Source: Firmicutes bacterium UBA3941 (GTDB lineage Bacteria; Bacillota; Clostridia; Caldicoprobacterales; UBA3941). Taken from it: a stretch of 17,180 nucleotides of DNA. The translations under genes were made by a program, and so were the position numbers. Below are positions 13,759-15,140 of this stretch, in pieces; the first letter of the stretch is position 1, and every line of letters begins with the position of its first letter. The notes under the pieces are model-generated. The model worked only from the letters and a program-made list of their open reading frames with translations. It did no database searches and was not told where the DNA came from. The stretch covers positions 1-17,180 of the forward strand of contig DGDX01000037.1 in NCBI GenBank assembly GCA_002385665.1, in the 5' to 3' direction.

Positions 13759-13796
13759 AGTAGACAGCCAATGATATAATACCTCCAAGTAGACAG
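13759..13796 (+). repeat. Direct repeat AGTAGACAG, possible insertion sequence end
   Basis: AGTAGACAG occurs at 13759-13767 and again at 13788-13796, 29 bases apart. A related GAAGTAGAC stands at 13988-13996, at the other side of the remnant. Repeats of this kind next to a hairpin and a transposase-like start suggest the end of an IS3-type element. This is a pattern reading, not a database match. Confidence 0.4.
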
Positions 13797-13836
13797 TCTG
13801 ATTAATCAGGATTATCTACTTGGGGGTATTATTTTG
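13778..13836 (+). terminator. Long fold-back hairpin after the GH38 gene, also an IS-end structure
   Basis: A 16-bp stem with one G-U pair (13778-13793 against 13815-13830) encloses a 21-base loop that itself holds CTGAT-TA-ATCAG. TATTATTTT follows, so it can end transcription from the GH operon. The right arm contains TTGGGGG, a ribosome binding site for the TTG at 13834, and the left arm contains its complement (ACCTCC). A TATAAT at 13775-13780 overlaps the left arm. Confidence 0.6.
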
Positions 13837-13890
13837 AACATTAAGCAAAAACCTCTCATAAAGTAAAGTAAAGAATTTAAACTGACGCTA
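13834..13890 (+). pseudogene. Truncated IS3-type OrfA start (remnant)
   Basis: A TTG at 13834 with a GGGGG ribosome binding site begins N-I-K-Q-K-P-L-I-K, then an in-frame stop (13864-13866), then S-K-E-F-K-L-T-L. Apart from the stop, this resembles the N-terminus of IS3-family OrfA proteins, which typically carry a (Y/F)-(S/T)-x-E-F-K-x-x-(A/V) motif before their helix-turn-helix. The similarity ends near 13890, where the reading changes to an ABC ATPase tail. The call rests on a short motif and should be treated as tentative. Confidence 0.35.
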
Positions 13891-13994
13891 ATGGGGATAC
13901 AACAATTTTGCTTGCATCCCACAATCCCCTGGATATTCAGGTGATGTGCCATACAGTGTGTGAAATGGATGCCGGGGAGCTGGTAAGGAAGTAG
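13881..13994 (+). pseudogene. C-terminal remnant of an ABC transporter ATPase gene
   Basis: An open frame of 37 codons ending at TAG 13992-13994 reads N-G-D-T-T-I-L-L-A-S-H-N-P-L-D-I, then V-C-E-M-D-A-G. This is the H-loop region and following strand of an ABC-2-type transporter ATPase. In-frame TAA at 13878-13880 closes it upstream, and no start, Walker A, signature or Walker B is present nearby, so only the last 35 or so residues of the gene survive. It lies directly downstream of the apparent OrfA start and converges on the CDF gene. An IS insertion followed by deletion would explain the layout. Confidence 0.55.
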
Positions 13995-14015: not shown

Positions 14016-14882
14016 TTATCCATCGGGTTCTACATGAACTATAACTTGTGCATTTTTATCAAATTTTGCTTTTATAGCGTCTTCTATATCGTGGACTAGG
14101 TTATGGGATTTTTCAACATTCAATTTCGGATTTACCACTATGTGTAAATCAATATGCAGACAATTGATGCTGCTTCTACTCCTAATTTTGTGAGCATCCT
14201 TAACATCTTCAAAACTCATTACAAGATCTCTGATATCTTGAGCATCAATGGCCGCACTGTCAAGAAGTATATTGCTATTCTCCTTATAAATTTCATAGCT
14301 GGCGTGAAAAATAAAAGCGGCTACCACCAATGAAACAATTGGGTCGATTACAGGAGGAAGCCCAAATTTAACGCCTACAAGAGTGGCAAAAACTCCTGAC
14401 GATATATAAATATCGCTTCTTGTATGCATTGAATCTGAAATAAGAATCTGGCTGTTAAGCTCTTTACCTTTCCTATATTCTGTAACAGAAACGACGATAT
14501 TAACTGTCAAAGTAAAAATTAGCACCATTAAGCTCTCTATTGTTATCTCAGGAATTACAGGCTCCCTAAACCTTTGTATTGCGTCTACAACTATCTTTCC
14601 TCCAGCGAAAAAGAGCATAACTGATATAAATAAACCTGCCAATGTTTCATACTTGTTATGTCCATAAGGATGTTCCTTATCTTCCGGTTTAGAAGCAAAA
14701 TGGATGCCAATTAACCCGACAACATTTGAAGAACCATCCGCAAGGGAATGGAATCCGTCCGCTGTCATGCTTGCACTTTTGATGATTGAACCTATAATGA
14801 TTTTCAGTATAGCTACGAGAATATTAGCCAGCAGAATGATAAAGAGAACTTGTCGTACTTTACTAAAATTATTCCTTTCCAT
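14016..14882 (-). CDS. Cation diffusion facilitator family metal efflux protein (288 aa)
   Basis: This is a membrane antiporter exporting divalent metal ions. The N-terminal part has several membrane helices (first about 11-31). Metal-site residues are D42, H45 and D49 in ADGFHSLAD of helix 2, and H152 and D156 in SDSMHTRSD of helix 5; HPYGHNKYE (70-78) is the usual cytoplasmic loop motif. The C-terminal domain (about 210-288) is the soluble dimerisation fold. H45-x3-D49 with H152-x3-D156 fits the zinc-type signature, but the leader carries a NiCo-like riboswitch, which points to cobalt or nickel export. The start ATG 14882 has an AGGAGGT site 6-7 bases upstream on the minus strand. It is the only gene downstream of that leader. 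Confidence 0.93.
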   Translation of the reverse strand: MERNNFSKVRQVLFIILLANILVAILKIIIGSIIKSASMTADGFHSLADGSSNVVGLIGIHFASKPEDKEHPYGHNKYETLAGLFISVMLFFAGGKIVVDAIQRFREPVIPEITIESLMVLIFTLTVNIVVSVTEYRKGKELNSQILISDSMHTRSDIYISSGVFATLVGVKFGLPPVIDPIVSLVVAAFIFHASYEIYKENSNILLDSAAIDAQDIRDLVMSFEDVKDAHKIRSRSSINCLHIDLHIVVNPKLNVEKSHNLVHDIEDAIKAKFDKNAQVIVHVEPDG

Positions 14883-14901
14883 AGAGATACCTCCTGCGAC
14901 C

Positions 14902-14950
14902 TATTAAAAAATCCATGGAACATTATCTAACGCAATGTCCCATGGATTTT
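14902..14950 (-). terminator. Riboswitch-controlled terminator in the CDF gene leader
   Basis: A 17-bp inverted repeat with one mismatch (14908-14924 against 14934-14950) and a 9-base loop is followed on the minus strand by TTTTTT. It sits between the promoter region and the ribosome binding site of the CDF gene. Its 5' arm uses the same bases as P4, the GGGACA element and the P1 3' strand of the aptamer-like structure, so only one of the two can form. Confidence 0.8.
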
Positions 14951-15017
14951 GCTATATCCACTGCCTTATAAAAGGCCCAGCCGCACACGCATAAGCGTAT
15001 CGCCTGTTCATTTGCAC
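14931..15017 (-). promoter_or_regulatory. NiCo (cobalt/nickel) riboswitch aptamer-like leader of the CDF gene
   Basis: On the minus strand the leader folds into four helices. P1 is GTGCAAATG with CATTGCGTT (one bulged A, G-U pairs). P2 is ATACGC-TTAT-GCGTGT (15000-14985). P3 is GCCTT-TTAT-AAGGC (14976-14963). P4 is GTGGAT-loop-ATCCAT (14961-14942). The joining segments AACAGGC, GCGGCTGGGC, GGCAG and GGGACA match the conserved junction of the NiCo/czcD riboswitch class as I remember it. That class controls CDF-type exporters. Formation of the aptamer would block the downstream terminator, so metal binding should turn the exporter on. A TATAGT (15027-15022, minus strand) would start transcription just before P1. 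The identification is by eye; a covariance search would settle it. Confidence 0.72.
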
Positions 15018-15140
15018 TTATACTATAAAATGGATTATTCTTTTATTATTAGTATATGCAAGTTATCCATCAAATGTTACAAAAATTCAAATGTCCAAGA
15101 AGGATGTTTATTATATTGTATTAGTTAAACATGGAAATGT

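Follow-up and report, generated by a model that had tools for sequence, protein, structure and literature searches.

Papers from 2015 and 2022, together with one from 2020, reportedly differ on the metal sensed by NiCo (czcD) riboswitches: as reviews tell it, the first proposed cobalt and nickel as the ligand, and the two later ones Fe(II). A 2024 review places the class under Fe2+ (PMC11477304), and the ligand is called open in PMC9294342 and PMC7689651. The mechanism is already in print as an ON transcription switch, in which guanines of the aptamer junction bind metal and transcription reads through when metal is present (PMC7689651, PMC7917058). The metal ligands in the solved aptamer are given as G46 and G47 (and G45), along with G87 and G88 (PMC7689651). 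In Listeria, a czcD riboswitch is described over a PfeT-like P1B ATPase and linked to Fe(II) (PMC7689651). Here we describe one further intact member of the class, found in a window of 17,180 nucleotides (the whole stretch of DNA that was analyzed) from Firmicutes bacterium UBA3941. Like the Listeria system, it places this sensor class ahead of a metal exporter; the exporter is a P1B ATPase in Listeria and a CDF protein here. We put at roughly nine in ten the probability that this NiCo-class riboswitch controls the CDF metal exporter by transcription termination, as an ON switch. The features of the locus are collected in Table 1.

Table 1. Features of the exporter leader and gene, in window positions.
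Feature	Position	Strand	Basis
NiCo (czcD) riboswitch aptamer, four-way junction P1-P4	14933..15020	-	Rfam RF02683
P1 5' strand AATG, pairing with CATT 14937-14934	15009..15012	-	Rfam alignment; P1 covariation, 21 rows
P2 hairpin, basal GGC/GCT and distal stem	14979..15004	-	Rfam alignment, fold, covariation
GGG at P2/P3 junction, third G opens P3; invariant	14976..14978	-	alignment columns G43-G45
P3 hairpin GCCTT...AAGGC	14963..14976	-	Rfam alignment, fold, covariation
P4 hairpin GTGGAT...ATCCAT; 3' strand common to terminator	14942..14961	-	Rfam alignment, covariation, folding
GGGAC junction and P1 3' strand, common to terminator	14934..14941	-	invariant columns G80-C84; 23/23 leader folds
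Possible promoter TTGATG - 17 - AATAAT; weak	15045..15073	-	promoter scan
Terminator hairpin, 17 pairs, arms 14950-14934 and 14924-14908, loop of 9	14908..14950	-	sequence, fold, shuffles
T tract, six T, overlaps right-arm end	14906..14911	-	sequence
AGGAGG ribosome-binding site, outside both alternative structures	14890..14895	-	sequence
CDF cation exporter, 288 aa, ATG start	14016..14882	-	PF01545, PF16916; YiiP/FieF alignment

An Infernal search of the minus strand with the Rfam NiCo riboswitch model RF02683, the check suggested in the preliminary description of this DNA, returned a match at 15020-14933 of 61.5 bits (E 2.9e-12) that covers positions 1-96 of the 96 in the model, the curated cut-off being 37 bits. 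The match starts three bases further 5' than the 15017 given in that description and bears out the four helices that it had drawn around AACAGGC, GCGGCTGGGC, GGCAG and GGGACA, all of which are present in the minus-strand leader. Our own model, R1, scored the aptamer at 78.3 bits, with the window as one of its 21 training rows. This is the only NiCo match in the source assembly, which is 83% complete. The GGG at the P2/P3 junction appears to hold the run of G equivalent to the metal-coordinating Gs of the solved aptamer, and the guanines of GGG and GGGAC together would correspond to G45-G47, G87 and G88 of that RNA. In its full-length covariance match, junction bases, four helices, overlapping terminator and CDF (CzcD-type) exporter gene downstream, the window leader is like the NiCo/czcD family, and no structural difference from RF02683 was found. 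Besides the promoter candidate in Table 1, others lie at 15080-15051, 15137-15110 and 15143-15115; since the stretch holds 9 promoter-like sites compared with 6.5 expected by chance, a promoter is not established.

When 21 aptamers including that of the window were aligned (leaving out L004 and L032, near copies of L003 and L022), the GGG at the P2/P3 junction and the GGGAC were invariant in all 21. With the Rfam pairing imposed on these rows, 93.5% of 356 cells pair, and pairing falls to 25-47% in a control in which the partner is slid by 1-3 columns. Cells changed on both sides number 53 versus a shuffle mean of 19.5, with 0 of 500 shuffles as high. Such changes are present in each of the four helices, P2 contributing a single pair and a single cell; P1, P3 and P4 covary, and one pair of P1 is seen as U-A, A-U and C-G, the next as U-A and A-U. 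Two of the five covariation measures give little or nothing, namely the number of pairs with a both-side change (9 versus 6.6 for shuffles, of which 28 of 500 reach 9 or more) and the number of further pair types (15 versus 19.0). Neither the outermost pair of P1 nor the innermost pair of P4 is general, with breaks in 4 of 21 rows for the former and in 11 of the 20 rows that carry letters for the latter. Nothing that we found supports a chance hairpin without a riboswitch; the E-value of the Rfam match, the covariation and the recurrence before the orthologous gene described below all speak against it, and we give it a negligible probability.

The 17-bp terminator with six T described earlier has the letters AAAATCCATGGGACATT - GCGTTAGAT - AATGTTCCATGGATTTT, which form 17 pairs, one of them G-T, and end in the T tract at 14911-14906. 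Its left arm reuses the 3' strand of P4, GGGAC and the 3' strand of P1, so that the sharing of bases with P4, GGGACA and P1 can be seen directly in the letters. The 14950-14908 hairpin is missing from the output of a simple terminator scan that allows loops of at most 8 bases; the loop of 9, or else the overlap of T run and stem, is the probable cause. The 141 bases from 15030 to 14890 fold to -49.3 kcal/mol, compared with a shuffle mean of -31.8 (z -4.83; 0 of 200 as low), and when the downstream part was shuffled, 0 of 200 sequences formed a hairpin as stable as the real terminator. Folded at full length without constraints, the leader adopts the terminator form at -46.1 kcal/mol, compared with -23.7 for the aptamer-constrained form. 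Even the aptamer by itself, in the absence of metal, favors other pairings: it reaches -28.5 kcal/mol in a free fold that lacks the Rfam P1, versus -19.4 when the Rfam pairs are enforced. Bound metal is beyond the energy model, and the ON state lies outside these computed folds. On stepwise lengthening of the window leader, P4 had formed by length 80, the upper part of the terminator appeared at 104, and P4 was gone by 108. Because folding favors the terminator form, termination would be the default without ligand, and the ligand must then hold the aptamer, which makes the switch an ON switch. Neither structure includes the ribosome-binding site, so control is expected at the level of transcription.

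The same overlap recurs among relatives. In a set of 23 leaders free of repeats, in which L004 and L032 were kept, the hairpin ahead of the T run pairs bases of the aptamer 3' end, those of GGGAC among them, in 23 of 23, and by fold the terminator and the aptamer are mutually exclusive in every one. The terminator captures a median of 14 of the 15 bases at the aptamer 3' end, versus 7.5 after shuffling of the downstream part. In 21 of the 23 leaders, no more than 1 of 200 downstream shuffles is as stable as the real terminator, and L006 (6 shuffles as stable) and L017 (4) miss that level. When leaders are scored only by how many bases are captured, 69 (L006), 29 (L011), 16 (L009) and 12 (L004) of 200 shuffles do as well as the real sequence. 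The preliminary description had staked its reading on a covariance hit and on conservation of the junction bases and the overlap in homologous leaders; these were looked for, and the reading came through.

Our proposal draws on the sequence of the aptamer, its covariation and conservation, the conserved overlap with the terminator and the order of the genes; the window copy would work by the mechanism published for the class. The first helices to form during transcription of the leader would be P2, P3 and P4. With no metal present, P1, which is weak, and the metal-bridged junction would not be held, and the 3' strand of P4 through GGGAC and the 3' strand of P1 would pair with the next arm to give the 17-bp terminator, stopping transcription ahead of the exporter gene. 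A divalent metal on the junction guanines would hold P1 and P4 and make the left arm of the terminator unavailable, and the exporter would be made. The earlier prediction of an ON switch worked by Co2+ or Ni2+ is thus supported in its ON logic, by the fold, the overlap and the published mechanism; Co or Ni as the settled signal is the part that does not stand, the ligand being disputed in print.

Among 38 distinct relatives of the exporter with at least 50% identity, a NiCo riboswitch precedes the orthologous gene in 22, the window included; two of these (L025 and L029) were found by R1 only, below the Rfam cut-off. Five relatives carry a palindrome described below, none carries both, and 11 carry neither (the leader of L018 is short and that of L034 is absent from the data), so the exporter does not always need a NiCo switch. 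Loss and decay of this kind, seen in L010 and L012 (no R1 match, though the exporter is 73% identical) and in L025 (TGGAC in place of GGGAC), would suit a relic aptamer in a leader that now serves as a plain attenuator or a constitutive terminator. The window itself has its invariant junction bases and helices intact and scores well above the cut-off, and we hold a relic to be highly improbable here; a working ON switch remains our reading.

Two diverged aptamers show how far the element can depart from the common form: that of L029 (36-96) has 61 bases with P2 nearly lost, and that of L025 (2254-2414) has a long insert and stands outside the 21-row alignment. Some 60 bases upstream of the CDF gene in L012, AAATCCATGGACATT ... 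TTCTTTTTTT resembles by eye a decayed NiCo terminator half without an aptamer. All counts leave out L008 (27.5 bits, below the cut-off, no CDF). L002 and L009 are the same place on a contig, as are L007 and L023, and L071-L074 and L099 repeat places already included; the listing of 30 NiCo leaders in the palindrome analysis contains repeats. The genes of L034 and L060 are incomplete, and the exporter tree left out these two, L058, 17 archaeal rows and the repeats.

The exporter matches PF01545 (Cation_efflux; 160.1 bits) and PF16916 (ZT_dimer; 72.4 bits), which places it among the CDF proteins. TIGR01297 (CDF superfamily) is the only one of the ten NCBIfam models listed to exceed its cut-off; the nine equivalog models listed all fall below theirs, including those for DmeF, a Co/Ni CDF (NF033827; 55.6 bits, cut-off 250), FieF (NF050169; 139.8 bits, cut-off 420) and the zinc CDF Cdf31 (NF052602; 217.5 bits, cut-off 460). 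In the alignment with the YiiP/FieF structures, site A is H45-D49/H153-D157, the HD-HD type that had been read from the translation, site B is D68/H71/H75, and site C ends in E285. The exporter is related in sequence to YiiP/FieF (PDB 5vrf, 3h90 and 2qfi; query residues 24-286 for 5vrf) and shares the D/H/H of site B and three of the four site C positions; it differs in site A, which is DD-HD in YiiP/FieF, and in the last site C residue, which is D in YiiP. All fetched orthologs with at least 50% identity and complete sites are HD-HD, with or without NiCo. The second CDF of the source genome, on contig C107, is ND-DD, and its locus has no NiCo match. Beside that gene lies a cobalamin riboswitch (L070 2477-2660; genome G000), so the source genome handles B12; the gene behind the riboswitch encodes a lipoprotein that looks by eye like a B12-binding protein.

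Two other features of the window lie on the far side of the exporter. By eye, 13863-13988 (+) encodes the C-terminus of an ABC transporter ATPase (TTILLASHNPLDIQVMCHTVCEMDAGELVR), preceded by stops; it is probably what is left of a gene between the exporter and the convergent gene that comes next. Between two convergent genes, 13780-13831 forms a near-perfect hairpin, perhaps a shared terminator; an Rfam miRNA hit there is below its cut-off.

Across the class, 47 of 391 genomes carry NiCo over the cut-off. At 27 further loci, the best-scoring of 56 matches listed and thus no fair sample for shares, the next gene encodes a CDF in 15 (11 HD-HD, 4 ND-DD), a P-type ATPase identified by DKTGT and PEEFP motifs in 11, and no clear exporter in 1. 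The ND-DD CDFs are at L195, L198, L200 and L201, and this type of site is usually tied to manganese. PEEFP P-type ATPases follow NiCo at L003, L004, L177, L179, L180, L183, L185, L187, L189, L190, L192, L193 and L199. Of these ATPases, that of L003 alone was scanned; it matches P2-type (calcium-pump) models best, below their cut-offs and in a frame cut by the end of the locus. At L188 (1501-1650), a complete NiCo aptamer and terminator have no intact exporter frame close behind. The preliminary description had hoped that sensor and HD-HD exporter together might reveal the true metal. We rejected the exporter site as a guide to metal identity because NiCo stands ahead of CDFs of both the HD-HD and the ND-DD type and also of P-type ATPases; with three kinds of exporter behind one sensor, exporter type does not name the metal. 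The same spread would be expected if the switch answered several metals as a general overload alarm and the site of each exporter set which metal is removed, and Mn, Fe, Co, Ni and Zn are reported to activate the switch in E. coli (PMC7689651). Selectivity at the level of the family is reported in the same source against this, and we consider a general alarm unlikely.

The signal for the same switch could instead be Co2+ or Ni2+ in the cell, as the original name implies, with the CDF exporting those metals. Co/Ni-selective binding and induction have been described for the class (as reviewed in PMC7689651; PMC7917058), and among 30 genomes of the order, kin that are not independent, CbiM, the only Co/Ni importer covered, is matched in 3 of the 7 with NiCo over the cut-off. 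Against this, CbiM has no match in the other 4 NiCo genomes, the source genome (83% complete) included, or in any of the 6 genomes of the window's family, again with the source genome, and it is matched in 19 of the 23 genomes without NiCo. NiFe hydrogenase is matched in 0 of the 30, and the measured Co/Ni affinities are said to look too weak for a response in the cell (PMC7689651). We judge a Co/Ni signal somewhat unlikely. FeoB is matched in 29 of the 30 genomes, with two copies in the source genome. None of the three counts, CbiM, NiFe hydrogenase or FeoB, was accepted as proving the metal, since 30 genomes of non-independent kin are only suggestive; the counts disfavor a dedicated Co/Ni economy in the source genome and are compatible with iron, short of proof, and the cobalamin riboswitch of that genome is a further caution. 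Weighing the above, we infer about an even chance that Fe(II) is the physiological metal of the switch, take Co/Ni as a tentative second candidate, and regard Zn or Mn as doubtful.

CDF genes without NiCo can carry another element. When all CDF leaders fetched were searched for a palindrome near ATTNTCAATTGANAAT, with up to 2 mismatches and within 300 bases, it was found in 0 of 23 with NiCo and 14 of 65 without; shuffled leaders gave means of 0.27 (maximum 2) and 0.69 (maximum 3), respectively. NiCo and the palindrome were never seen on one gene. Two copies are present in 13 of the 14 leaders, in 11 of these 108-121 bp apart; the exceptions are L019 (61), L031 (89) and L091, which has a single copy. 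By eye, the copy closer to the gene is mostly found just upstream of the ribosome site. The leaders with ATTNTCAATTGANAAT are L075, L076 and L079 (HD-HD orthologs), L080-L082, L084-L086, L090 and L098; L019, L031 and L091 are weaker, and weaker copies (1 or 2 mismatches) occur in Fonticella tunisiensis and Clostridium pascui. Of the 30 genomes of the order, 11 contain exact copies, and in 8 of the 11 these lie ahead of a CDF gene. Elsewhere, an exact copy lies inside a flagellin frame in G002 and near a glyoxalase-like gene in G025 (names by eye), and in G015 one (L102 1501-1516) begins 117 bases upstream of a rubrerythrin gene (1618-2211). In the exporter tree, which carries a long-branch warning, the palindrome falls in two separate CDF groups.

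The pair of palindromes appears to be a putative protein operator. In G006, G007 and G010, the distal copy runs into a 17/19 match by eye, counting free N as a match, to the E. coli Fur consensus as quoted in PMC545781. Across the class, the two-palindrome pattern occurs in 51 of 391 genomes versus 14 for a backward-pattern control, and it coincides with known CDF genes, which are known for the 30 genomes of the order only, in G006, G007, G009, G010, G011 and G017 alone. Canonical Fur-type boxes (TGATAATGATTATCA or 1-2 off) stand before feoAB in L161, L163, L165 and L171; feoB starts were recognized by motif in 5 of the 17 stretches only. The palindrome is absent from these four feoAB leaders, and we accordingly leave its regulator unnamed. 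Among the 20 papers listed by a literature word search for ATCAATTGAT, none was relevant by title. We offer, as an unlikely but specific suggestion, that the CDFs of this order alternate between NiCo and the ATTNTCAATTGANAAT pair around the promoter region, with its Fur-like, TGATAAT-like units, and that, if the binder is an iron or peroxide sensor, the metal would be Fe(II); the palindrome before rubrerythrin in one relative is set beside this reading of the binder.

The presence in one order of orthologous exporters with and without NiCo gives a comparative handle on the metal of the switch and the pump. G024, in which the palindrome lies ahead of one CDF and NiCo ahead of another, offers a natural way to ask about the metal within one genome. 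We regard the two controls as the most useful lead from this locus: if the alternation is true and the binder of the pair is an iron or peroxide sensor, the swapping of regulators on orthologous genes would settle the ligand of the NiCo class by comparison.
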